The notes under the pieces were generated by a model. It was not told the origin of the DNA. It made no database searches and saw only the letters and a list, made by a program, of their open reading frames with translations. Below are positions 31,940 through 55,574 of a stretch of 64,000 nucleotides of DNA, one piece after another. The number at the start of each line of letters is the position of its first letter. Positions within the stretch are counted from its first letter, which is position 1. The position numbers and the translations under genes are program-made. This DNA comes from Streptomyces bikiniensis. Its GTDB lineage: Bacteria; Actinomycetota; Actinomycetes; Streptomycetales; Streptomycetaceae. The stretch spans positions 124,001-188,000 of the forward strand of contig JNWL01000005.1 of the NCBI GenBank assembly GCA_000716465.1, written 5' to 3'.

Positions 31940-31948
31940 CCGGCGGCT

Positions 31949-33464: not shown

Positions 33465-33508
33465 CGACCGCCTCGCCCATCTTCTCGCCCCTCCCGGAGA
33501 TCCCGATC

Positions 33509-36143: not shown

Positions 36144-37202
36144 ATGGCCACGCCGACGAACCCGCTGACCCCCCAGACTGTCCAGCGGCTCGCATTCATC
36201 CGATTCCTCTATGCGCAGGGCGTGACCCAGACCCAGCAGCCCCAACCTCTCGCGGCGACCTCGGTGCTGTCCTTCCATGATGCGGTCGAACTCTTCCTTG
36301 TCCTCGCGGGCGAGCATCTGCAGGTCAACCTCCCCACTCAGATCAACTTCTCTCAGTACTGGGACAAGCTCACACCCGGACTGCCTCCGAGCACTCAACT
36401 GCCAAGCAAGAAGGCTATGGAGCGGATGAACAAGCTCCGGGTCAACCTCAAGCACACCGGTGCGATGCCGTCGACGATGGACATCGCACAGGTCCGCGCG
36501 GACGTGCTGACGTTTTTCACCGATGCGACGCCCATGGTCTTCGGCGGAGACTTCGATCGCATCGACATGATCGATCTGGTCGCCCGCCAACAAACAGTGA
36601 ACTTCCTCCAATACGCGCAGACCAGCCTGGACCGGGGAGATCTGCCACAGGCGATGGCAGGACTTGCCATTGCGTTCGACGAGCTCATCGACCACTACAC
36701 CGAGGCCCGCCAATGGGCCTACCAACCACCGTTCCGATTCGGCGACACGGTACGCGACTACAGCGACCAAAGCATGCACATGTTCAACGACCGAGGCGCC
36801 AGCAAGCTCCCTGACCTGCCCAGATTCAGGCAGAGCCTCAAAGACATGTCCAAGCAACTTGCGAGTCTGACCGCCGCGACCAAGGGCATTCGGCGGGCGA
36901 TGCAGGTGACGGCACTGGGCATCGACTACAGCCGCTATGCCCAGTTCGAAGTGGTGACACCCGCCATCCAGCACTACTTGGATGGGCACACCACGTTCGT
37001 CGTCGAGGAGGGGCACAAAGCCCTCACCACCGACGACTACCACTTTGGACGCCTATTCGTGATCGAGTCCGCCCTGCAGGCAGCCAAAGCGGATGAAGTT
37101 CTGCAGCGGAGGCGTGCGCACCACGCTGCCGGCAGCCCGTCGCCGGGCAGCTGGAAGACCGGTGAGCACCGCCAGTGGGAAGGGCCTAATCCCTCCGGGT
37201 GA
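36144..37202 (+). CDS. Unknown all-helical protein with a HEPN-like R-x4-H motif
   Basis: 352 residues from ATG at 36144. I do not recognise the family. The first 100 residues are helical and contain FHDAVELFLVLAGEHLQV and KLRVNLKHTG, where RVNLKH fits the R-x4-H signature of HEPN ribonuclease domains. A second helical segment (LAIAFDELIDHYTEARQWA) follows. Base and codon use (many A/T third positions) differ from neighbours, suggesting separate acquisition. HEPN proteins in mobile elements are often antiphage or toxin RNases. The nuclease assignment is inference from one motif. Confidence 0.55.
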   Translation: MATPTNPLTPQTVQRLAFIRFLYAQGVTQTQQPQPLAATSVLSFHDAVELFLVLAGEHLQVNLPTQINFSQYWDKLTPGLPPSTQLPSKKAMERMNKLRVNLKHTGAMPSTMDIAQVRADVLTFFTDATPMVFGGDFDRIDMIDLVARQQTVNFLQYAQTSLDRGDLPQAMAGLAIAFDELIDHYTEARQWAYQPPFRFGDTVRDYSDQSMHMFNDRGASKLPDLPRFRQSLKDMSKQLASLTAATKGIRRAMQVTALGIDYSRYAQFEVVTPAIQHYLDGHTTFVVEEGHKALTTDDYHFGRLFVIESALQAAKADEVLQRRRAHHAAGSPSPGSWKTGEHRQWEGPNPSG

Positions 37203-37513
37203 TGAGCAAGAGCTCAATATTCGCCGGACGCCCACTCTGCCGCGTCGAACCGCAGGGGGTCCATGCTGGTCATGCACGACCTGAGGAAGGATCACTCGGC
37301 CGTGCAGCCGCATTCGAGCCGATGCTCACCCTGATCGGCACGACAATGGCTTCTGAAGCCTCTGCGCGCCGTGACCCGTGCTGGTTCCGCGTCGACGCAG
37401 TCGGCGAAGCCTGCCGAACCAGCGTTCAAGTGCTGCCCGCCCGCGTACCCAACGTGCGGGGCCTCGCAATCGAGGCCCGCTACCCCGCCCAGCGCTTGAC
37501 CGCCTTGGTCTGA
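37202..37513 (+). CDS. Possible small gene coupled to the HEPN-like gene
   Basis: The ATG at 37202 overlaps the upstream TGA (TGATG), leaving a 103-residue frame (MSKSSIFAGRPLCRVEP... ending QRLTALV). Codon use is not convincing in its first half and nothing is recognised. A coupled antitoxin or partner is possible. The region from here to 37627 otherwise shows nothing. Confidence 0.3.
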   Translation: MSKSSIFAGRPLCRVEPQGVHAGHARPEEGSLGRAAAFEPMLTLIGTTMASEASARRDPCWFRVDAVGEACRTSVQVLPARVPNVRGLAIEARYPAQRLTALV

Positions 37514-37627
37514 GTCAGCGGACGCGTCTCGAGGCCGTGCTCAGAAGGCTGACCCCGAGGACGATCAGCCACCACGGCGGTGGCGGCAGCCTCGCCCAGG
37601 CTGCGGGCCCGGAAGCCACGTCGGCCG

Positions 37628-38197
37628 TTATTGCTCGTAGGCCCACGCCCGGCCGGTCTGGCGGTACTCCTCGACGGGGATGGGAGCGACGCCCGTCCGC
37701 ATCCGCGCGGTGTAGAGCAGGCCATCGAGGTGGTCGATCTCGTGGTGGACCAGCCGGGCGAGCCCGCGTTCGTAGGTGGTGGTCACCAGCTGGCCCTCCA
37801 GCGTGGTGGTCTCCACGGTGATCCGTAGTGGCCGGGGGACCAGGCCGCGGACGTCGAAGAACGACAGGCAGCCCTCGTACTGCTCGTCCTCGTCGCTGGA
37901 GCGGTCGGCGATTCGGGGGTTCAGCAGGACGATCGCCGGGGCGCCGGGGCCGGGGGGCTGGACCACGGCGGCGGCCCGGCCGATCGCGATCTGCGGGGCC
38001 GCGATGCCCATGCCCTTGGCGAACGGGTGAACCTGCCCGATCCGCTCCATCGCGGAGAACAGCTGCTCGACGACCTGCTCGGCTGCCTCGCGCTCGGCCG
38101 GCAGGGCGAAGGCGCGGGCAGGCTCGGCGAGGACGGGGGCTCCGTTCTGCACAACGCCGAGGCCACGCATCTGCTCGCTGGGCCGCACCTGGATCAC
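37628..38197 (-). CDS. def: Peptide deformylase (element-borne copy)
   Basis: 189 residues from GTG at 38195-38197. All three deformylase motifs are intact: GMGIAAPQ (about 62-69), EGCLSF and HEIDHLDG, giving the Cys and two His metal ligands and the catalytic Glu. The enzyme removes the formyl group from nascent proteins. Housekeeping copies lie elsewhere, so this one is extra. Its start overlaps the stop of the XRE regulator (GTGA at 38194-38197), so the two are translated together. It could protect against deformylase inhibitors or act on a specific peptide. Confidence 0.88.
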   Translation of the reverse strand: MIQVRPSEQMRGLGVVQNGAPVLAEPARAFALPAEREAAEQVVEQLFSAMERIGQVHPFAKGMGIAAPQIAIGRAAAVVQPPGPGAPAIVLLNPRIADRSSDEDEQYEGCLSFFDVRGLVPRPLRITVETTTLEGQLVTTTYERGLARLVHHEIDHLDGLLYTARMRTGVAPIPVEEYRQTGRAWAYEQ

Positions 38198-39165
38198 CTG
38201 AACTCTCCTTGTTTTGCTTCACGTTCGGGTCGCGCCCGGAACCGCCATTCCAGACGGTACCGGGCATGGAGTGCGGGTGTGGACGTGCTCCAGGAGAAGA
38301 CCCGCATCCCGTTCTCCTCGCGCTGGACCGGGGCCGTTCGCAGCGGTGCTGCCTCAGCGGTCATGGAGGTCTCGGTGCCCCACACCGCGGGGTCGAGTTC
38401 GGCGGGGAAGGCGAGTTCGACCGCCAGGTGCTCGGTGGGCAGGCGGACGGCGCGTTGGAACCAGCGGCCCCACTTCTCCTCGCCCACGGAGTAGGCGTAC
38501 TCGATCCACACCGACTCGCCCGGGTACAGAGGGAAGCGGCCCTGCTCGTTCTCGAACAGCAGCCACACCTCCTTGAAGGCGTCGCGGTCGTGCTTCGCCT
38601 GCCAGCGCATCGCCTCACCACGACAGGTCGCCGTCAGAGCGAGCTCGTCCCAGGTCAGCGGGTGTTCGCGGTAGTGGGCGTTGGACCGTTCCGGCTCGCC
38701 CGGGTAGCGGTCGACGCTGATGCGGATCAGGTAGCGGGTGATCGGCTCACTGCCGGTGTTCCGCAGCAGCCGGCGCATCGTGAGCCGGTAGAGGTGCCCG
38801 TCGTAGTCGAGGCGGGCCGCGTCATGCTCGACGACGATCGCCGAGCCGGTCGCGTACGGCTGCTCGGCCCTGCGGGGTGCGGGTACGACCGCCGTCGGTG
38901 CCACAGGAGCCTTGGCCGTCTCGTAGTCCAGCCAGCGCTTCCAGATGGCCTTACCCGCGTTCAGGGCCTCCTCCGCACGGCGGGCGAAGTCCTCGGTCGG
39001 CTTGTGCCGGCCCGACTCGACGTGGCTCACGTAGGACGGATCGAAGCCCATCCGTCTGGCTAACTCCCGCTTGGCAAGGCCCCGCACCTCGCGCCAGTAG
39101 GCGACCTCCGCCGCGAACGCCTCGGCGGCCTGCTCGACCGTCAAGGCGTCGTCCCGCGCGTCCAT
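38194..39165 (-). CDS. XRE-family regulator with a large C-terminal domain
   Basis: 323 residues from ATG at 39163-39165. An N-terminal XRE helix-turn-helix (KRELARRMGFDPSYVSHVES, about 32-51) is followed by about 240 residues rich in aromatic and charged beta-type segments (VWIEYAYSVGEEKWGRWFQR); no domain is recognised there. Co-translation with the deformylase and divergence from the glycosyltransferase genes (144-base gap) make it the likely regulator of both. Confidence 0.8.
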   Translation of the reverse strand: MDARDDALTVEQAAEAFAAEVAYWREVRGLAKRELARRMGFDPSYVSHVESGRHKPTEDFARRAEEALNAGKAIWKRWLDYETAKAPVAPTAVVPAPRRAEQPYATGSAIVVEHDAARLDYDGHLYRLTMRRLLRNTGSEPITRYLIRISVDRYPGEPERSNAHYREHPLTWDELALTATCRGEAMRWQAKHDRDAFKEVWLLFENEQGRFPLYPGESVWIEYAYSVGEEKWGRWFQRAVRLPTEHLAVELAFPAELDPAVWGTETSMTAEAAPLRTAPVQREENGMRVFSWSTSTPALHARYRLEWRFRARPEREAKQGEFR

Positions 39166-39309
39166 CAAAGCCCCCGCCCTGGCCGTCGGATGAGATGAAT
39201 GAACCGTCAGTGATCTCGATTCACCATTCTGTCACGGTCCCGTCCGCCAGTTTCCTTCCTTCACCGGCCCAGGTCGACCCCCGGGCCCAAACGAGGAGGG
39301 TCCCCAGCG

Positions 39310-40464
39310 ATGCGCGTGCTGTATCTGCTCAACGTCTCCAACTCCAGTCAGCTGTCCGCCGACTCCGGCTACACCTTCGCCGACATGCTCGCCCCGGCCC
39401 TGACCGACGCCGGGGCCGAGGTGACCGTGGCCTCGCCGGTCCCGGTCGGCGACACCCGCGTGCACTTCGCGCCCATCACCTCGCCGTCCACCAAGTACCG
39501 GGCCCGCTTCGACCCCGGCATGGACGCCCTGGTCACCCTGATCCGCGACCGGCGGCCCGAGGTGGTGGTGGCCAACCAGATCGAGGCCGCCCCCGCGATC
39601 CGGGCCGCGCTCCTGGAAGCCGGGGTGGACGCGCTGATCACCGGCTACTGCCACTACCTGCCGTTCTCCTTCACCGACACCGGCGTCCTGGAGCTGGACC
39701 CGGCGATGAACGACCGGGGCCTGGGCCGCAGCGTGCTGCTGGCCTTCGCCGCCGGCCTCGCGGCCTGCGACCGCATCCTGGTCCACTCCTCCACCGCCGC
39801 CTCCTGGACCACCGCGGCTGCCGCCCGCACCGGCGTCGACCTCGGCGACAAGCTGCACATCGTGCCCGCCCCCAGGGACGTACGGCTGGTGCGCGACCCG
39901 GCTGGCATCACCCCGCCCGGAGGCAGGGCCACCGGCATCTACAACCACCGCCTGTACAGGCACTACGGCACCGCCCGCTTCACCCAGCTCGCCCGCCGCC
40001 TCGTCGCCGACGCCCCGGTGCGGCTCACGGTGATGGACCTGTTCGGCATCCGAAGTTCCGAGCGCATTCGCCTCGACCCCAGCCCCGAACGGCACCTGGA
40101 GGAGCTGGCGACCACGGATGGCGTCACGATCGCCTCCGACCGCGGCGACCGCGTCCGCTACCGCAACCTTCTGTCTGGCGCCCACTTCGGCATCGCCCCC
40201 TTCCGCCCCGGCTGCCCCTGGTCCATGTCGGTGATCGACTGCCAGGCGATGGGCCTGCCCGTAATCGGCCCGCGCACCGGCTGGCTCGCCGAGCACATCG
40301 ACAACGAGCTGCTGTTCGACACCGACGAGCAGGCCGTCCAGATCACCGAGCGCCTCGCCACCGACGCCAAGTTCTACCTGGTGCACGCCAAACGCGCGCA
40401 CGCCTCCACCGCCGACCTCACGCACGCCGTGGTGGCCGCCCGTTACCTGGAGGCGATCAAGTGA
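39310..40464 (+). CDS. GT-B type glycosyltransferase
   Basis: 384 residues from ATG at 39310; the AACGAGGAGGGT site is strong. It has the two-Rossmann GT-B layout of GT4-like enzymes: MRVLYLLNVSNSSQLSADSG at the N-terminus, VDALITGYCHYLPFSFTD, and a C-terminal donor-site stretch HFGIAPFRPGCPWSMSVIDC followed by QAMGLPVIGPRTG. Donor and acceptor are unknown. It is the first of four genes joined by 4-base overlaps (to 43290), so it forms one transcription and translation unit with them. Confidence 0.75.
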   Translation: MRVLYLLNVSNSSQLSADSGYTFADMLAPALTDAGAEVTVASPVPVGDTRVHFAPITSPSTKYRARFDPGMDALVTLIRDRRPEVVVANQIEAAPAIRAALLEAGVDALITGYCHYLPFSFTDTGVLELDPAMNDRGLGRSVLLAFAAGLAACDRILVHSSTAASWTTAAAARTGVDLGDKLHIVPAPRDVRLVRDPAGITPPGGRATGIYNHRLYRHYGTARFTQLARRLVADAPVRLTVMDLFGIRSSERIRLDPSPERHLEELATTDGVTIASDRGDRVRYRNLLSGAHFGIAPFRPGCPWSMSVIDCQAMGLPVIGPRTGWLAEHIDNELLFDTDEQAVQITERLATDAKFYLVHAKRAHASTADLTHAVVAARYLEAIK

Positions 40465-41165
40465 CCGGCTTCGACGCGGTCCAGCTCTCCTACGACGAGC
40501 CGCTGGCCGACCGTCTGCACACCCGCCTCACCCGGGTGCTGGGCGGCACCGTCAAGCGCCTGCACGGAGTCCGCGGGATGCGGCGCGCGTACCGGCTCAC
40601 CGCCGAGCTGGTCGACACCGAGCAGTTCTTCCTCGCCGACGGTGACTTCGCCATCGACCCCGAGTTCCCCACCGCCGCAGTCCAGCCGCTGGCCGACGGG
40701 GTGGCGATGCGGGTCTGGCAGGCGGTCAACCCGGTCAACGGCCTGACCTACGGCTACGGCGGGCTCAAGCTGATCCGACGCTCGGCGCTGCGGGAGATGG
40801 GCCAGGCCGTCGACGTGCTGGCCGCACTGCCCGGCCGGGTCGAGTTCTGCCGCCAGACCGCCGGGGTCACGCGGTTCAACCAGAGCCCGTTCCACGCGTG
40901 GAAGGCGGGCTTCCGAGAGTGCGCGATGCTCGCGCGCGGCAGCGAGTACGGCATGACCGACGCCTCCGCCCAGGAGCGTATCGCCGCTTGGACGGCTGGC
41001 CGCGACGGCGAGTTCGCCGCCTACGCGGCGGCCGGAGCCCGCGACGGACTCGGCTTCGCCAAGGCCGCTGCCCGCGACCCGCAGCGCTTCGAGGCGCTCA
41101 ATGACCCGCCCTGGCTGTACCAGCACTTCACCACTCTGTACGGCGAGCAGGCGGTGACCGGATGA
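40461..41165 (+). CDS. Putative glycosyltransferase-like protein (phage-type, D-x-D)
   Basis: 234 residues from GTG at 40461, overlapping the previous stop (GTGA). The N-terminus FDAVQLSYDEPLADRLHTRL, then KRLHGVRGMRRAYRLTAELV and FFLADGDFAID, resembles proteins I know mainly from phage genomes that carry the motif LSYDEP...HGV.G...A...DGD. DGDFAID would be a D-x-D metal/nucleotide-sugar site of a GT-A fold. Function is not established. Confidence 0.55.
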   Translation: MTGFDAVQLSYDEPLADRLHTRLTRVLGGTVKRLHGVRGMRRAYRLTAELVDTEQFFLADGDFAIDPEFPTAAVQPLADGVAMRVWQAVNPVNGLTYGYGGLKLIRRSALREMGQAVDVLAALPGRVEFCRQTAGVTRFNQSPFHAWKAGFRECAMLARGSEYGMTDASAQERIAAWTAGRDGEFAAYAAAGARDGLGFAKAAARDPQRFEALNDPPWLYQHFTTLYGEQAVTG

Positions 41166-42397
41166 GCACCGCCCCCGGGCCACTGGTGCTGATCGAGCCG
41201 TACGCGCACCGGGCCGGCGGACATCACCAGCGCACGCTGGCGGCGCTCGCCGCCGCGCGGCCGGACAGCCTCGTCATCGCCCCGGGCGGCCTGAGCGAGG
41301 ACGTGGGCCCGCTGGTTCAGTCCGGTTCCCGGGTCGCCGTCGGTCCGGCCGGGCCCGCGGCGAAGATCCTTCTGGCCGTCGCGCGGGCGGCAGCACGGGT
41401 CTCCGTCGCCGGCCAGCAGGTCTTCGCCTCCCGGCGCTGGCCGCTGGCGGTCCGCAGGTCCCCGCACCAGGTCACCCTTCTCGCCCGGTGCCTGACCGAG
41501 GCCGCCTGCCTTCGCACCGCACGCCGCCTCGCCCCGCGGGCCTCGGCAGTGGTGATCCTCAGCGCGAACGAGGCCCTGCACGGCGTGGCCGCCCTGCTCG
41601 GCGGCACCCCGCACCTGCGGTTCATCCACGAGGCGGTCACCACCGAAGACCGCCTGGTCCGGTGGCTGGGCCGACTTGCCCGCAGGGGCGAGAAACGGGT
41701 GATCGCTCTGTATCCGACCACCGCTGTCCGCGATCAGGTCGCGCCGGCCTTCCCTCGCCTTCTGGGTGAGGTGCGAGCGTTCGCGGTCGACGACGGGCGC
41801 CCGCTGACCGACGCCGAACGAGACGGTGCCCGCACCGCCTTCACCATCCCCGCCGATGCGAAGGCGGTGTGCGTGGTCGGCGGCTGGTGGCCGTACAAGG
41901 ACATCCCCACCATCGACGCCGCCCTCGCCCGCCTCACTACCCAGCTGCACGTCCTGGTGTGCGGCACCCCACTGGACGACGCCGTCCTCACCCGCTGGCA
42001 CCAGCTCCCCAACGTCCACCTTCACACCGTGCCCGGCCCGGTCGGCGACCAGATCCTGCGGCTCGTCTACGCCGCCGCCGACACGGCCCTCGTCGCCCGG
42101 AAGCCCGGCGTGGGCAAGGAATCCGGACTGGTCATGGACGCCGCCCGCCTCGCCGTCCCGCTGATCGTCTCCACGCACGACCCCGAGCTGACCGCCCGCC
42201 TCGACGGGCAGCCGTGGGTCCGGCTCTTCCCGGCCGGCGATCCGGACATCCTCGCCAAGACGCTGGACCACCTCACGGCCGACGCGCCCGCCCGCCCGGG
42301 GCCTTCGGCGCGCGGGGTCCTGGACATGCACTCGGCGGCCGAGCAGGCTGCCTTCCTCGCCGACACCTACACCCGCCTGACCAAGGAATGCCGATGA
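41162..42397 (+). CDS. GT-B type glycosyltransferase-like protein
   Basis: 411 residues from ATG at 41162, overlapping the previous stop (ATGA). LVLIEPYAHRAGGHHQRTLA begins the first Rossmann domain; AVCVVGGWWPYKDIPTIDAA and GNEE-like KPGVGKESGLVMDAARLAVP in the second domain match a GT4-type donor-binding lobe with its Glu pair reduced to one (KESG). Substrate unknown. Confidence 0.65.
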   Translation: MSTAPGPLVLIEPYAHRAGGHHQRTLAALAAARPDSLVIAPGGLSEDVGPLVQSGSRVAVGPAGPAAKILLAVARAAARVSVAGQQVFASRRWPLAVRRSPHQVTLLARCLTEAACLRTARRLAPRASAVVILSANEALHGVAALLGGTPHLRFIHEAVTTEDRLVRWLGRLARRGEKRVIALYPTTAVRDQVAPAFPRLLGEVRAFAVDDGRPLTDAERDGARTAFTIPADAKAVCVVGGWWPYKDIPTIDAALARLTTQLHVLVCGTPLDDAVLTRWHQLPNVHLHTVPGPVGDQILRLVYAAADTALVARKPGVGKESGLVMDAARLAVPLIVSTHDPELTARLDGQPWVRLFPAGDPDILAKTLDHLTADAPARPGPSARGVLDMHSAAEQAAFLADTYTRLTKECR

Positions 42398-43290
42398 AGA
42401 CGACCGTCTCTCCCGCCCTGGTCGCGGTGGTCGGCCCGGTCGAACCGGCTCTGCTGGCCGCCTGGACTGCCCACTACCGCCGACTCGGCATCGAACGCTT
42501 CCACCTCGCCTTCCACTTCCCCGACCACGTCCACGACGCCTGGCGGCACCAGCTCCTCGCGGCCAGCCACGACCTCGGCATCATCCCTGCCCGGATCAGC
42601 ACCGGACCGTGGCACGAGCACACCAACACCCAGCTCCGCGACGCCTTGCGCGAGCAGGCGGGAACCGGCTGGCACCTGATCGCCGACTCCGACGAGTTCC
42701 AGACCTACCCCGCCCCGCTCGCCGAGATGATCGCCCAGGCCGAGGCCGCCAGGCGCAAGGTGATCGGCGGGCTGATGCTCGACCGCGCCACGAACGACGG
42801 CCGCTTGGCCTTGTGGCGCCCGGAAACCGGACTGGACCGGGCCTTCCCGCTCGGCGGGCACCTCACCCACCGGCTCCTCAAGGGCGACCCCCGTAAGATC
42901 GTCCTCGCCCACTCCTCAGTGACCGTGGCATCCGGCAACCACCGGGCACCGGGCCACAAGCCCGACCCGGACACGCTCGCGTGCGTGAACCACTTCAAGT
43001 GGCGCTCGGGCGTCCTAGACGACCTGCGCCGGCGGATCGACCGGTTCACCTCCGGTGAGTGGGCCGAGCACACCCCGGCCGTCCGCAGCGAGGCGTCCCG
43101 CCTGTTGCAGCACATCGACCGCCACAACGGCCGCATCGACGTCGCCGATCCCCGCCTGGCCTTCCGCCGCGTCACCCTCGACCGCCTGCCGGACGGCTGG
43201 GCCGCCGAAGCCGCCAAGATCTCCAACACCTGGCGCCCGCAGATGGCTCAGAGCCAGTCCGGCTCCACGATCTCCTCGCCCTCGCCCTGA
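42394..43290 (+). CDS. GT-A type glycosyltransferase (GT2/GT92-like)
   Basis: 298 residues from ATG at 42394, overlapping the previous stop (ATGA). PALVAVVGPVEPALLAAWTA, HYRRLGIERFHLAFHFPD and HLIADSDEFQTYP (D-x-D as DSD) fit the GT92/DUF23-like group of nucleotide-sugar glycosyltransferases; VNHFKWRSGVLDDLRRR is a typical later segment. Its last 43 bases overlap the 3' end of the convergent kinase gene. Confidence 0.7.
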   Translation: MKTTVSPALVAVVGPVEPALLAAWTAHYRRLGIERFHLAFHFPDHVHDAWRHQLLAASHDLGIIPARISTGPWHEHTNTQLRDALREQAGTGWHLIADSDEFQTYPAPLAEMIAQAEAARRKVIGGLMLDRATNDGRLALWRPETGLDRAFPLGGHLTHRLLKGDPRKIVLAHSSVTVASGNHRAPGHKPDPDTLACVNHFKWRSGVLDDLRRRIDRFTSGEWAEHTPAVRSEASRLLQHIDRHNGRIDVADPRLAFRRVTLDRLPDGWAAEAAKISNTWRPQMAQSQSGSTISSPSP

Positions 43291-43748
43291 GGCGCCTCGA
43301 AGCGGGCGAAGAAGTCATCCAGGGCCGCCGGCGTCACGACGAGCGCGTTGGCGTCCTCCCGCTCATTGCGCTCCGCCAGCCTGCGCAGCAGTTCGTCGCG
43401 CTCCACCGGGAAGTACAGCAGCCGCCACCGCCCGCCGGCCGACTCCACCAGCTCCTTCATCGCGTCGCGGTCCTTACGCGGCCACAGCCCGTGGTCCCAC
43501 ACCACATCCCGGCCCTCGGCGACCAGCTCGGCAAGCCGCTCGTGCAGCTCGGCGACGACCGGGGCCTCCTTCTCGAAGTAGGTGTTCTCCGGGTAGTCGA
43601 CGCCGTAACGACCGTGCCGCTCGAAGACGACCTCGTCCACCGACAGCCGCACAGCACCCTCGGGCTCCAGCTTCCGCAGGGCATAGGTGGTCTTCCCCGA
43701 ACCGGTGAGCCCCACCAGCAGGAACACCACCGGAGTGCGCTCGGCCAC
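43248..43748 (-). CDS. P-loop kinase (AAA_33/zeta-like)
   Basis: 166 residues from GTG at 43746-43748, chosen because GGGGAG lies six bases upstream. The Walker A motif is LLVGLTGSGKTTYA (about 9-22), followed by SVDEVVFERHG with a likely catalytic Asp, and VVWDHGLWPRKDRDAM. This small-molecule kinase family includes sugar, nucleoside and peptidoglycan-precursor kinases as well as zeta toxins. No antitoxin is adjacent. Lying convergent inside the glycosyltransferase cassette, it may activate a sugar for it. Confidence 0.7.
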   Translation of the reverse strand: MAERTPVVFLLVGLTGSGKTTYALRKLEPEGAVRLSVDEVVFERHGRYGVDYPENTYFEKEAPVVAELHERLAELVAEGRDVVWDHGLWPRKDRDAMKELVESAGGRWRLLYFPVERDELLRRLAERNEREDANALVVTPAALDDFFARFEAPQGEGEEIVEPDWL

Positions 43749-43849
43749 CGCCAACTCCCCTCAACAACACCAGCGTTCCTTGGCCAGTCTGCCACCGCCG
43801 GCCAGCCCAGGACCCCGTTCCCCATCACCGTCACCCGAAGGAGCCGCCC

Positions 43850-44767
43850 GTGTCTGCCTCCGCACTCGCCCGCACACTACGGGCCTACGTCCGCCACGCC
43901 CCCGGCAGCGTGGGCAAGGCCCGGCTCGTCGGCAGCTTCCTCGACGAGCACCTGCGCACCCACCCCGTCCGCACCACCGTCCGGCTGCGGTCCGGCGACA
44001 AGGTCGGCGTCACCACCAGCGACGTCATCCAGCGCTACCAGTACCTGTTCGGCGAGTGGGAGCCGAACCTGAGCGCCTTCCTGCGCGACCGGCTCCGCCC
44101 TGGGGACACCTTCATCGACGTCGGAGCCCACCGCGGCGCCTTCAGCCTATTGGCCTCCCACGCCGTCGGCCCCCACGGCCGCGTCGTCACCATTGAGCCC
44201 TCCCCGCAGTTCCACAACGACCTGACCGCCGCGGCCACCGCCAACCACCGCACCAACATCCGGGCCGTCCGCTCCGCCGCCTCCGACACCCACGGCACCC
44301 TGACCCTCTACCTGGAGGACCCCGCCAACCTCGGCCACACCACCGCCGTCCGGCCCCGCCACGTACACACGGCCTTCGACGTGCCGACCGCACCCCTGGC
44401 CGACCTGATCAGCCGGCCTGAGCTCGCCACCACCCGCGTCATCAAGATCGACGTCGAAGGTGCCGAGGCAGCAGCCATCCGAGGGCTGCTGCCCGCGCTC
44501 GCGCACCTGCGCGACGATGCGGAACTCGTCGTGGAAGTCACCCCCAGACTCCTGGCCAAGCAGGGCGAGAGCGCCGCCGACATCATCGACACCCTGCGCG
44601 AACACGGCTTCTACGCGTACACGCTCACCAACGACTACGACCCGGCCACCTACCCCCGAGCCATGCGCCGACCGCAGCCGCCCGCCCGGTGCAACGAAAC
44701 CCCGAAGGACATGACCGACCTGGTTTTCTCCCGCACCAACGCCGACGGCCTCACGCTCGGGCGCTGA
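43850..44767 (+). CDS. FkbM family SAM-dependent methyltransferase
   Basis: 305 residues from GTG at 43850; AAGGAGCCGCCC precedes it. The SAM-binding motif I is DTFIDVGAHRGAFSLLAS (about 86-103), followed by VVTIEPSPQFHNDL and the FkbM-typical RVIKIDVEGAEAAAIRGLLP. Such enzymes O-methylate sugars or polyketides. Its place after the glycosyltransferase genes suggests methylation of the glycan made by them. Confidence 0.82.
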   Translation: MSASALARTLRAYVRHAPGSVGKARLVGSFLDEHLRTHPVRTTVRLRSGDKVGVTTSDVIQRYQYLFGEWEPNLSAFLRDRLRPGDTFIDVGAHRGAFSLLASHAVGPHGRVVTIEPSPQFHNDLTAAATANHRTNIRAVRSAASDTHGTLTLYLEDPANLGHTTAVRPRHVHTAFDVPTAPLADLISRPELATTRVIKIDVEGAEAAAIRGLLPALAHLRDDAELVVEVTPRLLAKQGESAADIIDTLREHGFYAYTLTNDYDPATYPRAMRRPQPPARCNETPKDMTDLVFSRTNADGLTLGR

Positions 44768-44858
44768 GCAGCACCTCCACATTCCAAGCGGCTCGGCCAG
44801 TCCGAGCCGCGCGCCAGGACCACCGACACCTTCCGGCACGTCGACGAGGAGTGGGCAC

Positions 44859-45338
44859 GTGATCAACACCAGCGTGATGAACAGCCGCAACGCAGTCTGC
44901 GTGATCGTCCACGACAAGGACGCCGACACGATCGCCGCCGTGCTCTACGGAGCCCGCAACTGGTCCCCGCAGCCGGCCTGGACCCTCCCCGGTGGCAAGG
45001 CCGAACCCGGCGAAGCCCTCGACGAGGCCGCCGCCCGCGAACTCAAGGAGGAGACCGGCCTGCTCGTCGACCCGGCGGATCTCGCCCTCGTCCACGTCAT
45101 CCACGTCGAACAGGGCTGGGACCAGGCCGGGCAGTTCGTCCTGTTCGTCTTCGCCACCGACACGTGGGCCGGTGAGCTGACCAACACCGAGCCGGACAAG
45201 CACCTGACGGCCGAGTGGGTCGCCGCGAGCCGCCTGCCCACCCCCGCGTTCCCGACCTCCACACAGGCCCTGGCGGCGTACCAGGACGAAGGCCCGTCCT
45301 TCTCCCGCTATGGATGGTCGGTCACCGCTGCGCAATGA
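44859..45338 (+). CDS. NUDIX hydrolase of the element
   Basis: 159 residues from GTG at 44859 (GAGGAG upstream; an ATG at 44877 is possible). NUDIX box GGKAEPGEALDEAAARELKE followed by ETGL is complete. The start AVCVIVHDKDADTIAAVLYG and the PQPAWTLPGG segment fit 8-oxo-dGTP- or nucleotide-sugar-type pyrophosphatases. It could turn over the nucleotide sugars used by the cassette. Confidence 0.8.
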   Translation: MINTSVMNSRNAVCVIVHDKDADTIAAVLYGARNWSPQPAWTLPGGKAEPGEALDEAAARELKEETGLLVDPADLALVHVIHVEQGWDQAGQFVLFVFATDTWAGELTNTEPDKHLTAEWVAASRLPTPAFPTSTQALAAYQDEGPSFSRYGWSVTAAQ

Positions 45339-45493
45339 GCCAGCACCAGGGTGATCGGCGGGCTCGGCCGCCACACTGAGACGGCTCCGGTGGGTGCCGC
45401 CCACCTCGCACCAGACCGGATCGCCGCAGTGTGAGGGCGTCACGCTCCGGAGTCGCATGGGAACACCCCTGGGTCCGACGTAGGCTCGGTGGC

Positions 45494-46396
45494 ATGAGCC
45501 TGCGCCTGAGCACCGTGATCCTTCCCGTCGACCGCTGGCACGAGGGAGGCCGCGCGAAGTGGCAGCGCGCCGAGGAACTCGGCTTCCACGCCGCGTACAC
45601 GTACGACCACCTCTCCTGGCGGACCTTCCGCGACGGCCCCTGGTTCGGCGCCCTGCCCACCCTTACCGCCGCCGCCACGGCCACGGACCGCCTGCGCCTG
45701 GGGACCCTCGTCACGTCGCCTAATTTCAGGCATCCAGTGACGCTCGCCAAGGAGCTGATCTCGCTCGACGACATCTCCGGCGGGCGGGTCACCCTCGGCA
45801 TCGGGGCCGGCGGCAACGGCTTCGACGCCACCGCGCTGGGCCAGGAGGCGTGGACGCCGAAGGAGCGGGCGGACCGGTTCGGCGAGTTCGTTCCGCTGCT
45901 CGACCGGCTCCTCACCGAGGGCGCGGTCTCGCAAAAGGGCGACTTCTACACGGCGGAGGAGGCGCGGAACATCCCAGGCTGTGTCCAGCGCCCGCGGCTG
46001 CCGTTCGCCGTGGCGGCGACCGGGCCGCGCGGGCTGCGGCTGGCCGCCCGGTACGGGCAGGCGTGGGTGACGACGGGCGACCCGAAGCTGTACGAGGAGG
46101 GGACCCCGGAGCAGTCGGTGGAGGCGCTGCGCGGGCAGGTCGAGAAGCTCGGCAAGGCGTGCGCCGAGTCCGGGCGGGACGTCGCCGAGCTGGACAAGAT
46201 CCTGCTGACCGGCTTCACCCCGGACCGGGGCCGACCGCTGGAGTCCGTGGACGCCTTCGTCGACTTCGCCGGCCGCCACCAGGAGCTCGGCTTCACCGAG
46301 ATCGTGATCCACTGGCCGATCGCGGACTCCGACTTCGACGCTGACCAGCAGGTCTTCGAGCGACTCGCCACCGAGGCACTTACCCAGCTGAATTGA
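45494..46396 (+). CDS. Intact LLM-class F420-dependent oxidoreductase (element-borne replacement)
   Basis: 300 residues from ATG at 45494. MSLRLSTVILPVDRWHEGGR and LGIGAGGNGFDATALGQEAW are typical of the Rv1855c-like group of F420/FMN-dependent luciferase-like enzymes. It is the complete version of the gene that the element disrupts: its residues 75-300 match the fragment at 27699-28379, and its first 75 match the fragments at 51242-51456, 53897-54111 and 55458-55574. It lies in the opposite orientation to the host gene. Codons 76-81 (45719-45736) are silently recoded exactly at the attachment site. Confidence 0.9.
   Translation: MSLRLSTVILPVDRWHEGGRAKWQRAEELGFHAAYTYDHLSWRTFRDGPWFGALPTLTAAATATDRLRLGTLVTSPNFRHPVTLAKELISLDDISGGRVTLGIGAGGNGFDATALGQEAWTPKERADRFGEFVPLLDRLLTEGAVSQKGDFYTAEEARNIPGCVQRPRLPFAVAATGPRGLRLAARYGQAWVTTGDPKLYEEGTPEQSVEALRGQVEKLGKACAESGRDVAELDKILLTGFTPDRGRPLESVDAFVDFAGRHQELGFTEIVIHWPIADSDFDADQQVFERLATEALTQLN
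45719..45736 (+). other. Recoded attB right half inside the intact oxidoreductase gene
   Basis: Codons CCT AAT TTC AGG CAT CCA encode PNFRHP. The disrupted host copy encodes the same residues as CCG AAC TTC CGG CAC CCG. Five of six codons differ, every change is synonymous and goes to a rare A/T-rich codon, while codons on both sides are ordinary GC-ending ones. Confidence 0.85.
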
Positions 46397-46625
46397 TCAA
46401 GGGCCGTGCTGCTGGCCACGCCACTGCGTTCCACGTAACTCGTGCGGCCGATGAACGTGGAGCAATCAACAGCGGACGGAGCTACGGGGCTACTCCAATC
46501 ACCCGAGCGGGAGCGTGGTGGTGAGCGCCACGTAGCGGCTCAACTGTCCCGCCAGACAGTAGAATCAATCAGATCATCCCGCAGTTGGGCAGCAGGGTAG
46601 GCGAGCATAGATCTGGGGGTGGGCC

Positions 46626-47564
46626 ATGGTGGGGGCACAGTCGGGCGCTGCAAAGAAGATCCACTCCGACGCTTACGGGGCGCTCATCGAGGCGCTGACC
46701 ACGATCAACTGGAACAAGGCCCCGTTCGAGCAGGACATCCGGCGCAGGCTCCGAGCGCATCCCGAGTTGCTCATGCGCCTCGACTTCGCCACGACGAAGC
46801 GCCAGACAGCAGCCCAGCTGGTGCACATGCTGATGGACCAGGAGTCGGAGTACCGGGACTTCACCATTGAGCTGATGATCGACGTGTCCAGGCTGGACAC
46901 CTTCCCGAACCTGATGAAGCAGGTGGACGCCAAGGAGCTCCTGGCCGACGCTCAGGCTGCCGTGGCGAACCTGGCCAGGTGGGTTGACCGGCATGCCGGT
47001 CTAGTCGAAGAGCGGGAGAGACTAGCTGCGGACCTCGCGGCTCACCAGGACGAAGTTAATCGGAGTCGCAGTTTCGCCCAGGTGCTGCAGGAGCTGACGC
47101 AGGACTTCCTGCGGCTCCGTTCAATAGAGAACCGCCAGCAGGCGGGGCGTGAGTTCGAAACCTTCCTGCATCGGTTGTTCACCCTGTTCGATCTGGAACC
47201 CACGCTCGCGTACAACCTGAAGGGCGAGCAGATAGACGGGGCGATCTACTACAACACGGACCACTTCATCGTCGAGGCCAAGTGGCTGGCCGGCACCGTC
47301 GAGGCCGAGGACCTGATGAAGTTCGACAGCAAGGTGCGTCTAAAGAGCAAGAACGCCCTGGGCTTGTTCGTGAGCGTGAACGGATTCTCCGCAGGTGGCC
47401 GCGACATCTTCAAGCGGGGGACGTCGTTCATCACCATCGAAGGCGGAGACCTCTACTGCGTGTTGGAGGGGCGCATCCGCCTAGACGAGCTGCTCAGCCG
47501 CAAGCTCCTCCACGCAAGCACTACCGGCAATTGCTACTACCCGGCAGCAGAGATACTGGGCTGA
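46626..47564 (+). CDS. PD-(D/E)xK (Mrr-like) nuclease, putative restriction/defence protein
   Basis: 312 residues from ATG at 46626. The N-terminal half is helical with a coiled-coil segment (LVEERERLAADLAAHQDEVN, about 120-145). The C-terminal nuclease fold shows GREFETFLHRLFTLFDLEP (conserved Glu helix), GEQIDGAIYYNTDHFIVEAK (D...E-x-K active site, about 211-231) and a following SKVRLKSKNALGLFVSVNGF. Restriction_endonuc-like proteins with this layout cut DNA. Codon use is less GC-rich than in the core genome. It lies 270 bases upstream of the DUF262 operon on the same strand. Confidence 0.75.
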   Translation: MVGAQSGAAKKIHSDAYGALIEALTTINWNKAPFEQDIRRRLRAHPELLMRLDFATTKRQTAAQLVHMLMDQESEYRDFTIELMIDVSRLDTFPNLMKQVDAKELLADAQAAVANLARWVDRHAGLVEERERLAADLAAHQDEVNRSRSFAQVLQELTQDFLRLRSIENRQQAGREFETFLHRLFTLFDLEPTLAYNLKGEQIDGAIYYNTDHFIVEAKWLAGTVEAEDLMKFDSKVRLKSKNALGLFVSVNGFSAGGRDIFKRGTSFITIEGGDLYCVLEGRIRLDELLSRKLLHASTTGNCYYPAAEILG

Positions 47565-47835
47565 TTCTGAGCTCGACGCTTCGTTGAGGCACTACCCGAC
47601 CTGGCCGCCCGCTCCGAAAGCAGCCACGGGAGACCTCGATGGTCACCCTGTGTCATACCCCAGCGATGTCAGGCGATGGTGTGCGCCTCACGGGCGGCGA
47701 ATCCATCACACCGTTCGCCGCCCGGTCCTGCTCGTGAAGAGGTTCTTAGCCCTCGCCAGCGGCTAGGGTCACCTCCTGTCGCGTGAAGAGGAGGAGGTCA
47801 GCAAACTCCTTCGGCCTGGGCCACTGGCCCATAGA
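47565..47835. other. Gap between nuclease and DUF262 genes
   Basis: This 271-base stretch has no credible gene. It probably contains the promoter of the DUF262-AAA operon, but no clear -35/-10 pair is visible. Confidence 0.3.
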
Positions 47836-49014
47836 ATGGCCCGCATGGCTATGGACGGCACGCAGACGACTCCGGACGTGGTGGAGGACGTGTTCGATGG
47901 ACACGCCACGGGTATCGAGGTCGAGGACTCGGGCGAGGACACCACCAAGATTCAGCGGCCGTGGAACCCTGACCAGATCCGGGTGAACACCAGCCAGTTC
48001 TCCTTGCGTAACATCCTCGACCAGATCGACGAGGGTTCCATCGAGCTCGCTCCGGACTTCCAGCGGTTGCAGGTCTGGCGGACGGACCAAAAGTCCCTGC
48101 TGGTCGAGTCGCTGCTGCTCCAGATCCCGCTGCCCGCGTTCTACTTCGCGGAGGACGCGGACGGTTCTTTCCGCGTTGTCGACGGCCTTCAGCGGCTGTC
48201 GACGCTACACGCGTTCGTCCGGGGTGGAGACAACGGCTTCGCCCTTGGGAAGCTGGAACACCTGAACGATCTGAAGGACATGCGCTTCAGTGATCTCCCT
48301 GTACCGTCCCAACGGCGAATCAACAACACCCAGCTGATCGTCAACGTGATCGACCCGACGACACCGCGCGGGGTCACGTACGAGATCTTCAAGCGCATCA
48401 ATACTGGTGGAACCCCGCTCAATGCCCAAGAGATCCGGCACTGCATGAGCAGCCCGCGTAGCAGGGGCATCTTGCACCGGATGACTCATACGGATGCTTT
48501 TGCCAAGGCCACTGGGGGCCGCCTCACTGATCACATCCGGATGAATGATCGGGAGATGGCCCTGCGGTTCGCCGCGTTCTGGTTGAAGGGGGTCTTGGCC
48601 TACCAGGAGCGCCCCTTCATGGAGCAGTTCCTGATGGACGCAACCGAGATGCTGGATGATCCGAAGCAGGTCCCAGACGAGCAGGTGACTGAGCTGGAGA
48701 CCGCCTTCGAGCGGGCGATGACTCACGCGTACCTCGTCTTCGGCGAGCACGCTTTCCGCAAGTGGCCGGAGGGCGACGATTACCGTCGCCCGATCAACCG
48801 CGCCATGTTCGAGAGCTGGTCCATGGCCTTGGCCGACCCCGACTGCACGACTGCCGACCTGCGTACGCGTCGAACAGCCATTGTGAAGGCGGCCCGTGAG
48901 CGGATGACCACCGACGTCACGTACCTCAACGCCATCACCTCCTCCACCGCCGACCGGTTTAGGGTGGACTACCGCTTCAAGGCCGCCGTGGCGGATGCGG
49001 GAGCCGGTCTGTGA
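47836..49014 (+). CDS. DUF262 (GmrS/ParB-like NTPase) protein
   Basis: 392 residues from ATG at 47836; further ATGs at 47845 and 47851 are possible. DUF262 features are IELAPDFQRLQVWRTDQKSL, PAFYFAEDADGSFRVVDGLQ followed by RLSTL (the DGQQR motif as DGLQR), and YEIFKRINTGGTPLNAQEIR. DUF262 domains are ParB/sulfiredoxin-like nucleotide-binding modules of GmrSD-type restriction enzymes. The DUF1524 HNH nuclease usually fused after it is absent. Its stop overlaps the ATPase start (GTGA at 49011-49014). Confidence 0.82.
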   Translation: MARMAMDGTQTTPDVVEDVFDGHATGIEVEDSGEDTTKIQRPWNPDQIRVNTSQFSLRNILDQIDEGSIELAPDFQRLQVWRTDQKSLLVESLLLQIPLPAFYFAEDADGSFRVVDGLQRLSTLHAFVRGGDNGFALGKLEHLNDLKDMRFSDLPVPSQRRINNTQLIVNVIDPTTPRGVTYEIFKRINTGGTPLNAQEIRHCMSSPRSRGILHRMTHTDAFAKATGGRLTDHIRMNDREMALRFAAFWLKGVLAYQERPFMEQFLMDATEMLDDPKQVPDEQVTELETAFERAMTHAYLVFGEHAFRKWPEGDDYRRPINRAMFESWSMALADPDCTTADLRTRRTAIVKAARERMTTDVTYLNAITSSTADRFRVDYRFKAAVADAGAGL

Positions 49015-50132
49015 TCACTTCCCTGGAGATTCGGGGCTTCAAGCGGTTTGAATCAGCGTCGTTTGGCCTGCGTCCTTTCACGGTCCTGACCGGAGTTAAC
49101 GGCGGCGGCAAGAGCACCTTGATCCAGTCCCTGCTGCTGGCGAGGTTGGCAAGTACGTCAGGTGCAGCGGCAGGTGCCACGATCCGGCTAAATGGCCCGC
49201 TCGGGCTGGCTCTCGGCGAGGCCCGGGACGTGCTGAACTGGACGACCGACGCGCGTGAGATCAGCATTCGACTGGGCGGCCCGGACGGTGAGTCATGGGT
49301 GTACGGCTTCGGGCTGCCTGACGCCGAGCAGGCACTGCACCTCGACGTGCGGCGGCTCCCAGTGGCGCACGTGCCAGGTATCGGGTCCGCTGTCACGGAT
49401 CCCGCTTTCACCTACCTGTGCGCCGAGCGTCTGGGCCCCCGTGACACGCTGTCGGTGTCCGCCGAGGAGCCCGACCGGATCGGAGTCGGAGTGCGGGGTG
49501 AGTTCACCGCACAGGTGCTGGCACTGCGCGAGTCCCGCGCGGTAAGCACTCGGAGGGCGGTCCGAGGAGCATTGCACCACCCAGATTCCGCAGGACCGCA
49601 GTTGAGAGTCCAGGCCGAATCGTGGGCCTCCGAGATCATCCGTCCTCTCCAGATCAATGCACGGGTCGCCGTGGGAATCATGGCCACGACGATCCGGTTC
49701 GGAGAGACGGGGCTGAGCGGTGAGGAGATCCGTCCAGTCAATACCGGGTTCGGCATCTCCTACGCCTTGCCGGTCATCGTCGCGGGGCTACTCACAGAGC
49801 CAGGCGATCTGTTGATCGTGGAGAATCCCGAGGCGCATCTGCATCCGGCGGGACAGTCCCGGTTGGGCCGGTTCCTCGCTCGGGTGGCGGGCAGCGGGGT
49901 ACAGGTCGTGGTGGAGACGCACAGCGATCACGTCCTCAACGGAGCCCGACTCGCCGTCGCGCACGATCACTCGCTACCGGCGGCGGACATGATCACCCAC
50001 TACTTCGATCACGACCAGACCCTGTCCATCGACATCAATGACAAGGGTGAACTCAGCTATTGGCCCAACGGTTTCTTCGACCAGATCGAGACCGACCTCG
50101 GGAGGTTGGCTCGTGCCCAACGCGGCAGGTAG
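49011..50132 (+). CDS. AAA15/DUF3696-like ABC-type ATPase
   Basis: 373 residues from GTG at 49011. Walker A is LTGVNGGGKSTL (about 26-37). The ABC-ATPase Walker B is DLLIVENPEAHLHPAGQSRL (about 263-282), with the switch His in VVVETHSDHVLNGARLAV. The C-terminal SIDINDKGELSYWPNGFFDQ is typical of DUF3696-type proteins. Related SMC/OLD-like ATPases act as sensors or motors in many two- and three-gene defence systems. It is coupled to the DUF262 gene by a 4-base overlap and overlaps the next gene by 20 bases. Confidence 0.82.
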   Translation: MITSLEIRGFKRFESASFGLRPFTVLTGVNGGGKSTLIQSLLLARLASTSGAAAGATIRLNGPLGLALGEARDVLNWTTDAREISIRLGGPDGESWVYGFGLPDAEQALHLDVRRLPVAHVPGIGSAVTDPAFTYLCAERLGPRDTLSVSAEEPDRIGVGVRGEFTAQVLALRESRAVSTRRAVRGALHHPDSAGPQLRVQAESWASEIIRPLQINARVAVGIMATTIRFGETGLSGEEIRPVNTGFGISYALPVIVAGLLTEPGDLLIVENPEAHLHPAGQSRLGRFLARVAGSGVQVVVETHSDHVLNGARLAVAHDHSLPAADMITHYFDHDQTLSIDINDKGELSYWPNGFFDQIETDLGRLARAQRGR

Positions 50133-51153
50133 GAACGGAAGGGGAAACGAGCAGGACTTATTGGGTGCCTCCGCTGCCCTCGATGCCGACGACGACTACC
50201 GCGTCGTAGTCGCCGAGGAGTGCTTCAACTGGCGGGAGCTGACGGACTCCGGCCTGCAAGACGCCCTCGACGTCCTTGTGGAAGTCCTCCAACCGTTTAC
50301 TGACGGCCGCAAAGCCGCGTTCATGGAGCCCGCGTATGACGTCGAGTGCCGCCCCTCGGTAACGCTGATCGACGCCCTGTATTCCCCGGACGGAGGGCTA
50401 CCACGTGACAAGCGGGCTCTGCTGCAGCAACTGGTGAGTAAATGTCGGTGCGTAATACCGGACGAGGAGGATCTGCCCCAGCCGGCCCGGGTAGCCGAGG
50501 GCTCCTGGCAGGAACCTTCCTGGGGTACAGCCCACGCCCTGGCTCGGGCAGCTATGGGCCGCGCCATGTCCTGTCTCCTGGTGCCTTACGCCACAGAACC
50601 CGACTGGCCGTCCGGATGGGTCACTGTCACGCGGACGACGGAGGTTGGCCAGGACGAGGTGAAGTTGCACGTTCTACGACACCCTGACGACGTACCGATC
50701 TTCTGGCGCGGTGTCCTCACCCACGAGAGCGTGCCGGCCGAGCGCTTCTTCACCTTCACAGAGGATGCTTTCCCCCGGCTGCTGTTCGCCGACTCTCTGC
50801 GTCTGCACCACTTCAAGGGCGCGTACGCCGAAGTCCTGCCGTGGCTCGTGAAGTTGCTGGGAGCGATTGACGACCACTTCGCCCGGACGCTGGCTGAATG
50901 CGGCGGCGACCAGACACAGGTTGTCCGGAGGTTCAGTGCTCTGGGCCTGGACATCTCACCCGAGAGCCCGAACACGAAGAAGAACGCGAAGGCGTGGGAG
51001 CAGCGCAACGTGGGATACGGCGACGGCACCTACCGATGCGAGTGGCATGGCAAGCGGCTCTGGGACCGCGACAGAGTCCACTTCTCATTGCCGATCGCCG
51101 AGCACGGCGACCGGATCCTCATCGGGATCTTTGTGGAGCATCTGGCGACCTGA
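50113..51153 (+). CDS. Unknown third protein of the DUF262-ATPase operon
   Basis: 346 residues from GTG at 50113, inside the 3' end of the ATPase gene; AGGTTGG is upstream. I do not recognise a domain. Visible segments include DYRVVVAEECFNWRELTDSG, DVECRPSVTLIDALYSPDGG, GTAHALARAAMGRAMSCLLV and a C-terminal NVGYGDGTYRCEWHGKRLWD then RDRVHFSLP. Tight overlap with the ATPase argues for a complex. By analogy with other ATPase-based systems it may be the effector or target-recognition part; this is inference. Confidence 0.65.
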   Translation: MPNAAGRNGRGNEQDLLGASAALDADDDYRVVVAEECFNWRELTDSGLQDALDVLVEVLQPFTDGRKAAFMEPAYDVECRPSVTLIDALYSPDGGLPRDKRALLQQLVSKCRCVIPDEEDLPQPARVAEGSWQEPSWGTAHALARAAMGRAMSCLLVPYATEPDWPSGWVTVTRTTEVGQDEVKLHVLRHPDDVPIFWRGVLTHESVPAERFFTFTEDAFPRLLFADSLRLHHFKGAYAEVLPWLVKLLGAIDDHFARTLAECGGDQTQVVRRFSALGLDISPESPNTKKNAKAWEQRNVGYGDGTYRCEWHGKRLWDRDRVHFSLPIAEHGDRILIGIFVEHLAT

Positions 51154-51219
51154 GCGAAGGAGACCGAAAGGCGTGGCCATGGACGTTCCGCTCACACATC
51201 AACGGCCAGGTCAGCCCGT

Positions 51220-51262
51220 GATGGGTGAACAAGGCTTGACTGACGTGACGAGCGTGCCCAAA
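51220..51262. other. attR: right junction of the main element
   Basis: Element arm GATGGGTGAACAAGGCTTGA (51220-51239) meets target-gene sequence CGTGACGAGCGTGCCC at a GA dinucleotide (51242-51243). Reversed, the arm reads TCAAGCCTTGTTCACCCATC, an imperfect mirror of the attL arm. Joining the arms gives an attP of about 47 bases with inverted halves around the crossover pair. Confidence 0.75.
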
Positions 51263-51456
51263 CGTATACTCTGTGTGACCGTCGCTGCCGCTGTCAGCGT
51301 CGGGATCGCACCGAACCACGGCCCGTCCCGGAAGGTACGCCAGGACAGGTGATCGTAGGTGTACGCGGCGTGGAAGCCGAGTTCCTCGGCCCGCCGCCAG
51401 GTCTTCTGTCCTTCGGCCCACCGGTGGATGGGGAGGATCACGGTACTCAGACGCAT
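51242..51456 (-). pseudogene. 5' fragment 1 of the LLM oxidoreductase target gene
   Basis: From ATG at 51454-51456 it reads MRLSTVILPIHRWAEGQKTW and then AAYTYDHLSWRTFRDGPWFG to RLGTLVTS, where the attP arm takes over and adds VKPCSPITG before a stop at 51211. It is the first 71 residues of the disrupted gene family, though it diverges from the intact copy around residues 12-18 and so is not a simple duplicate of it. Confidence 0.88.
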
Positions 51457-53872: not shown

Positions 53873-53915
53873 GCGATAGGTGAACAAGGCTTGACCGACG
53901 TCACGAGCGTACCCA
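53873..53915. other. Second attR-like junction
   Basis: GGTGAACAAGGCTTGACC followed by GACGTCACGAGCGTACCC repeats the attR layout at 51220-51262, including about 15 further related bases upstream (CCAGGTCAG...). The crossover GA would be 53897-53898. It has no second attL partner in the window. Confidence 0.7.
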
Positions 53916-54111
53916 AGCGCATGCTCTGCGTTGCTGACGCTGCCGCCGTCAGCGTCGGGATCGCCCCGAACCACGGACCGTCCCGGAACGACCGCCACGA
54001 CAGGTGGTCGTAGGTGTACGCGGCATGGAACCCGAGGTCTTCGGCCCGCCGCCAGATGTGCCGACCCCGGCTCCATCGGTGGACGGGAAGGATTACCGTA
54101 CTCAGTCGCAT
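53897..54111 (-). pseudogene. 5' fragment 2 of the LLM oxidoreductase target gene
   Basis: From ATG at 54109-54111 it reads MRLSTVILPVHRWSRGRHIW and AAYTYDHLSWRSFRDGPWFG to RLGTLVTS, then the attP-derived VKPCSPIAA and a stop at 53866. It is related to but distinct from fragments 1 and 3. Confidence 0.88.
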
Positions 54112-55410: not shown

Positions 55411-55457
55411 TCTGCTCCGGGCGGGACCAAGATGCCCCTGACGCACGACTTCCCGGA

Positions 55458-55574
55458 TCAGACGTGGTCGTAGGGGTGAGCGGTGTGGAAGCCCGGCTCC
55501 TTGGCGCGCCGCCACTTCGCGCGGCCTCCCTCGTGCCAGCGGTCGATCGGCAGGAGCACAGTGCTCAGTCGCAT
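55458..55574 (-). pseudogene. 5' fragment 3 of the LLM oxidoreductase target gene
   Basis: From ATG at 55572-55574 it reads MRLSTVLLPIDRWHEGGRAK then WRRAKEPGFHTAHPYDHV and a stop. It is the fragment closest to the intact element copy in residues 12-20 and is probably the original chromosomal 5' end, now truncated at residue 38 by a deletion that also removed a third att junction. Confidence 0.8.

Follow-up and report, generated by a model that had tools for sequence, protein, structure and literature searches.

Silent recoding of the landing site in a target-gene copy carried by a probable integrative and mobilizable element of Streptomyces bikiniensis

Introduction

Why should a mobile element that splits a conserved gene carry a complete second version of that gene, and why should this version differ silently from the interrupted one at the very place where the element lands? 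These questions are raised by an element within a 64-kb stretch of Streptomyces bikiniensis DNA (contig JNWL01000005.1, positions 124,001 to 188,000), hereafter called the window, which is the whole sequence analysed here. The first-pass annotation, made from the letters of the window alone, held that the element splits an LLM-class oxidoreductase gene and that its cargo includes a full-length version in which the right half of the attachment site is rewritten with rare, A/T-ending synonyms. It was proposed that selection had favored a replacement enzyme that restores the host function and is invisible to the element's own integrase, a device for which its author knew of no precedent. Here these claims are followed through related element copies, uninterrupted host genes and used target sites.

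Materials and Methods

Relatives of the LLM gene were sought by protein search in 199 genus genomes and, in 392 genomes, with a degenerate DNA pattern in which codon 79 had to be AGR; the pattern matched 23 genomes, which after sorting comprised 13 element copies and 10 host genes. A codon-blind integrase search matched 26 of the 392 genomes, of which the 12 at 88% identity or more were counted, matches below 88% being set aside because their upstream junctions differ. A second integrase search gave 15 of 28 loci with the same attR or a close integrase; six were known already, leaving nine further records. A full-length LLM gene copy is present in each of the 21 integrase-bearing genomes. Two more, from G075 and G313, bring the set to 23; in these two genomes the gene is split and a copy is present, but the integrase search gave no match, and G313 was found solely by the AGG pattern. 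Copy and integrase lie on separate contigs in some drafts (e.g. G373, G393, G395, G396 and G397). All copies except that of G146 share a contig with half of the split gene (22 of 23), and the G146 copy shares one with a partial integrase.

The 60 codon-blind hosts are a fetched subset of the 196 genomes that matched in the protein search, taken roughly by similarity to the copy and excluding the 10 selected for AGG; the 70 hosts of the window-copy background count include those 10. The 20 used targets omit G146 (junction outside the LLM gene), G075 (junction decayed, with CCC AAC TTC CGG in the 3' half) and G313 (no such junction found). An in-frame stop at codon 42 excluded the G146 copy from the rare-codon fractions; it is included in the later counts. 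Domain scans of the element covered selected ORFs, and contig scans covered one of three contig collections (genome_contigs). The plasmid collection contained no relative of the LLM gene at 60% identity or more, and the phage collection contained no relative of the LLM gene or of the integrase.

Results

Comparison of the attL and attR junctions over elements bears out that the LLM gene is split, and places the split inside the Ser75 codon (Table 1). The TC dinucleotide common to both target halves is probably the crossover. Aligned as inverted repeats, the two element arms agree at 13 of 20 positions, as expected of attP. In the attL frame, the adjoining 5' half continues for ten residues beyond the junction (SVKPCSPITG) and then stops, and attR restarts at codon 75, so that neither junction rebuilds the gene. 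The element has an integrase of its own and attL/attR borders, as an IME should; with regard to mobilization, the MobC match lies above its cut-off and the Relaxase domain match below its cut-off. From these sequence features the element is probably integrative and mobilizable. Several shadow ORFs of the window gave no match in a Pfam search, and the 64 kb of the window contain no tRNA gene. An array of short CGTCCGTC-type repeats lies just outside the element at 27077-27208.

Table 1. Position, strand and basis of the features of the element and its target in the window.
Feature	Position	Strand	Basis or remark
3' half of interrupted gene, codon 75 to stop, unrecoded	27699..28379	-	open frame only 246 aa
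attR	28359..28400	-	element arm GGTATGAGCAAGGCTTGGGC, then TC, then target right arm
Integrated element, ~22.9 kb	28380..51241	.	between two putative crossover dinucleotides; from comparison of attL/attR junctions across elements
Large serine integrase, 477 aa	28409..29842	+	Resolvase, Recombinase and Zn_ribbon_recom domains; phrog_95 integrase E 1.2e-87; adjoins attR
DnaB-like helicase	30293..31939	+	PF00772 E 1.8e-26; phrog_6012 E 4.3e-92
MobC-like mobilization protein	33509..34243	+	PF05713 E 1.3e-08, above cut-off
Relaxase-like protein	34277..35647	+	PF03432 E 2.3e-04, below curated cut-off
LLM-class oxidoreductase full-length copy, 300 aa	45494..46396	+ (opposite to interrupted gene)	Bac_luciferase E 1.3e-41
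Codons 74-75 (ACG TCG), around crossover	45713..45718	+
Recoded codons 76-81 (CCT AAT TTC AGG CAT CCA)	45719..45736	+	right arm of former attB
Defense-system genes, three adjacent, matching NsnA, NsnB and NsnC	47836..51153	+	PADLOC E 1.3e-117, 5.4e-104 and 8.3e-118
attL	51222..51262	-	target left arm, TC, element arm AGTCAAGCCTTGTTCACCC
5' half #3 of interrupted gene, adjoining present element	51242..51456	-
Older 5' half #2, own attL-like junction	53897..54111	-
Remnant 5' half #1, ~39 codons, adjoining DUF72 gene	55457..55574	-

The gene carried by the element is full length, and its best NCBIfam match is TIGR03619 (E 7.5e-41, under the curated cut-off of that family). At codons 76-81 the 3' half of the interrupted gene reads CCG AAC TTC CGG CAC CCG; codons 76, 77, 79, 80 and 81 of the copy differ from it, all silently, and the unchanged protein at the site is as first annotated. 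The wording that these codons are rare and A/T-ending needs amendment, since it fits four of the five and the remaining one, AGG, is rare yet G-ending. Among the 295 six-codon windows of the copy, codons 76-81 are the richest in rare codons. When the copy is set against 70 host genes, 317 of 420 same-residue codons differ inside codons 76-81 (75%) versus 5311 of 16659 outside them (32%).

Silent recoding of the landing site in the element-borne copy is real and recurrent. With changes scored as CCT or CCA at codon 76, AAT at codon 77 and anything other than CGG or CGC at codon 79, every one of the 23 element copies has at least one change, as do 4 of the 60 hosts and 1 of the 20 used target sites. 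At least two changes are found in 21 of 23 copies and in none of the 60 hosts or the 20 used targets, with Fisher P values, kinship ignored, of 1.0e-17 and 2.6e-10, respectively. The same holds for the copies that can be recovered through the integrase only, of which 21 of 21 have at least one change and 19 of 21 at least two. The G395 copy has one of the three scored changes (CCA), plus TCA at codon 75, and the G398 copy one of the three, plus TTT at codon 78. Among the 60 codon-blind and 10 AGG-bearing hosts, none was found to carry CCT AAT TTC AGG CAT CCA naturally, an occurrence named in advance as fatal to the immunity reading.

Synonymous divergence per codon, the check suggested with the first-pass annotation, gave a peak on the site: when 14 copies are set against 60 hosts, codons 77, 76, 74, 79 and 81 rank first to fifth of 300 by excess synonymous difference, and seven representatives from separate tree positions have the same two top windows, starting at codons 74 and 76. 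The changes had been described as confined to the right half of the site. Codon 74, which lies just left of the crossover, is shifted over all elements as well (all 23 copies have ACG or ACA, and 49 of the 60 hosts have ACC), so that the recoding is not strictly limited to the right half; ACG at this codon also occurs in the old 5' halves #2 and #3 of the window. Inside the right half, CAT at codon 80 is weakly distinctive, being present in 10 of 23 copies and 13 of 60 hosts, and also in the used targets of G025, G275, G373 and A. bryophytorum. All but one of the 23 copies retain TTC at codon 78, and 21 of them have GTG at codon 82. Codons 76-81 form 13 haplotypes among the 23 copies, all of which retain the protein sequence PNFRHP; by this comparison, what the copies have in common is difference from the host, rather than one sequence. 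Rare codons make up a fraction of 0.11 of the element copies overall versus 0.06-0.07 of the hosts.

Among the 392 genomes there are 10 AGG-bearing hosts with no present element in the fetched region. AAT occurs together with AGG in three of these (G204, G353 and G367, of which G204 is in native orientation), and CCT or CCA at codon 76 is absent from all ten. The used target of G025 reads CCG AAC TTC AGG CAT CCG, indicating that AGG and CAT alone may not block insertion, or that they arose afterwards. Split host-type genes number up to three per locus; no recoded copy split by an attL/attR-type junction was found in the loci examined.

The hypothesis that the copies form one clade was rejected (p-AU 2.6e-59; 23 copies and 70 hosts, site codons masked), and the tree of copies and hosts has 10 label changes, with at least 3 forced by well-supported branches. 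Since the copies are not one clade, LLM genes of different host lineages were captured, each with a rewritten site; the recoded patch may have spread between copies by short recombination, in which case the independent origins of the patch would be fewer than those of the gene copies. The dN/dS of the copies is 0.12-0.20 in 11 pairs and the host median is 0.17. Such purifying selection, like that of hosts in the pairs tested, fits a working replacement. Of the 199 genus genomes, 196 have the target gene at E <= 1e-40. A split gene with no intact copy occurs in G022 and G090, and G010 has a degraded copy only; together with the stop codon in the G146 copy, these loci suggest that the function of the gene is valuable, not strictly essential. 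The loci of G022 and G090 (L071 and L072) have a different attR arm (CACAAGTTCACG before TCGCCG) and no match to the integrase of the window. The G075 element has two short degraded fragments on the same strand as its copy, which may be what is left of an earlier one.

In each of the 22 elements whose orientation could be determined, copy and split gene are on opposite strands, an arrangement that would bar deletion of the element via homologous recombination with direct-repeat halves. The LLM gene of the window is represented by three 5' pieces in one orientation and one 3' half; the further truncated 5' halves at the locus are absent from the first-pass annotation. On a short alignment, pieces #2 and #3 cluster with host genes of a lineage that is also found intact, and remnant #1, which is short, groups with weak support with the native host genes of G142 and G130. 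Of the modules upstream of pieces #2 and #3, one lies directly upstream of the intact gene in G100 and another does so in G204 and G080. The stretch 51206-55574 consists of remnants of earlier insertions, and we suggest tentatively, from these groupings, successive insertions into a gene that remained, or became once more, a normal target. Repeated modules, 81-90% identical within the window, lie between the 5' pieces of this stretch and recur at the same locus elsewhere; ORFs of the repeated 51.2-55.6 kb gave no Pfam match.

The LLM gene of 23 of the 60 codon-blind hosts (e.g. L092, L094, L096 and L103) is inverted with respect to the conserved flanks. Inversion as a general scar of the element was considered and set aside, the rare-codon fraction at codons 76-81 being 0.029 in inverted versus 0.059 in native genes. 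The gene is inverted in 7 of the 10 AGG-bearing hosts versus 23 of 60 (P 0.087). Only three inverted hosts are tied to element copies: the G379 gene has 3'-half remnants alongside and groups with element copies, and the genes of G353 and G367, which carry AAT and AGG, group with the copies of G146, G373 and G397. Judged by grouping and orientation, these three look like rescue genes remaining after element loss.

Discussion

We consider it probable that the element carries a rescue gene whose landing site has been rewritten against its own integrase, thereby avoiding self-recombination of the circle and keeping the host function. It is proposed that attP recombines with an attB in the coding sequence of a conserved LLM-class oxidoreductase gene, thereby splitting the gene, and that the full-length cargo copy would supply the lost function. 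With an unrecoded copy, a good attB would sit on one molecule with attP, opening the way to recombination within the excised circle at the cost of attP and, in a resident element, to renewed attack on the copy. Because of this risk of self-attack, selection would have exchanged codons at the crossover for synonyms, chiefly codons 76, 77 and 79 and also 74 and 81, such that the protein is kept and the integrase would hardly or no longer use the site. The repeated and varied silent rewriting of intact copies supports in part the earlier proposal of a selected replacement invisible to the integrase, and the immunity that was part of that proposal is plausible. Avoiding attP x attB recombination on one excised circle is a more direct reason for the recoding than immunity. 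We infer that recombination is lowered at the recoded site, that the copy rescues function, and that the benefits are ordered with self-recombination first and second insertion next, the blocking of a second insertion being plausibly a by-product of recoding.

The same recoding might be kept mainly because it closes the site to family members that arrive later, as superinfection exclusion or competition. The two or three 5' halves at several loci, which imply that the unrecoded gene was struck repeatedly, are in line with such a role, as is the persistence of recoded genes past apparent element loss in G379, G353 and G367. However, self-recombination affects every excised circle, whereas a second insertion matters only where elements meet, and we regard exclusion as the main cause as unlikely; integrases at least 88% identical occur in 12 of 392 genomes, too few for testing avoidance of double occupation. 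A neutral origin, in which the copies came from donors with a different natural codon choice unrelated to the integrase site, could draw on the slight overall excess of rare codons in element copies and on the occurrence of AGG and AAT in some hosts, but it appears very improbable in view of the peak at the crossover, which takes the top five of 300 positions, the recoding of several gene lineages and the count of zero among 60 hosts for two or more changes.

A short, sharply bounded changed stretch could also have some other DNA or RNA role in the copies, as a promoter, a regulator site or a translation pause. Thirteen versions in 23 copies, with no common motif and in exact overlap with attB, make this highly improbable too. 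Finally, the patch adjoins the crossover and so invites the idea of a scar left by integrase or gene-conversion events that copied an element arm into the gene; by reading, it is unlike either element arm (AGTCAAGCCTTG... or GAGCAAGGCTTGGGC), and with PNFRHP kept in 23 of 23 copies a scar is scarcely credible. Returning to the rescue gene rewritten against its own integrase, a wider picture may be put forward with some reserve as a possibility rather than an expectation: a natural disrupt-and-rescue family that knocks out a conserved gene, substitutes a recoded version to which its enzyme is blind, has rewritten and flipped the gene in part of the genus, and leaves resistant inverted copies that outlast decay of the element, as in G379, G353 and G367.

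In engineered Cleave-and-Rescue drives, the rescue copy is recoded so that the drive's own enzyme does not act upon it. If our proposal is true, the element would be a natural counterpart of this gene-drive principle and would show how an integrase can insert at an attB internal to a conserved protein-coding gene and leave the host function intact. Silent recoding of the landing site would serve as a simple sequence test for other whole-gene-rescue elements, and natural variation, with 13 haplotypes among the 23 copies and 20 used targets, suggests which attB bases are important to the serine integrase of the element.

The named integrase relatives are from Streptomyces and Actinacidiphila. 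Sister integrases from these two genera, 73-80% identical, belong to elements that, like that of the window, split a protein gene, in their case a gene for an aminotransferase (Pfam Aminotran_1_2); displaced halves lie in tandem in some of them. This gene appears to be rebuilt at one end of the sister elements, since most full-length frames have a common stretch at the site and displaced 3' halves adjoin the integrase. The stretch in question, carried by most of the full-length aminotransferase genes, is AAGGTTGG, and the sister loci (L189-L194, L196-L199, L203 and L204) have several displaced 3' pieces, four of them close together in G403. Integrases 53-55% identical to that of the window (L170-L176 and L178) have other upstream junctions, several in one reading frame (TSIIVGAAIGAVFFKERFGAPR-like, translated by eye).

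As in the target-restoring genomic islands of the Islander database (PMC4383910), in the parts of that source covered, target function would be kept after insertion; in those islands the inner sequence regenerates the split gene (PMC4383910), whereas neither junction does so here and there is a separate full copy. The likeness to Cleave-and-Rescue and other toxin-antidote drives, where a gene is disrupted and a rescue carried, is one of logic and not of kinship (PMC7951863, PMC7046741): as described in the passages covered, those drives are engineered, nuclease-based and used in animals, without site-specific integration into the target. A close parallel in layout is tRNA-dependent lysogeny of phages (Guerrero-Bustamante and Hatfull 2024, PMC10865867), in which insertion destroys an essential tRNA and the phage brings its own. 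There as here, the target is destroyed, the junctions do not rebuild it and a whole replacement lies elsewhere in the element; that system differs in its tRNA target, phage tyrosine integrase and short common core, as against a protein gene and a serine integrase, and the passages covered of that paper do not mention recoding of the landing site in the replacement (PMC10865867). Carriage of a whole replacement of the target has in this lysogeny a precedent that is absent from the first-pass annotation. The open-access literature searched, with few subscription papers, yielded no element that rescues a whole protein gene by means of a recoded copy. Rescue by an entire gene has been described for phage tRNAs, and the addition made here is its recoded protein-gene version.
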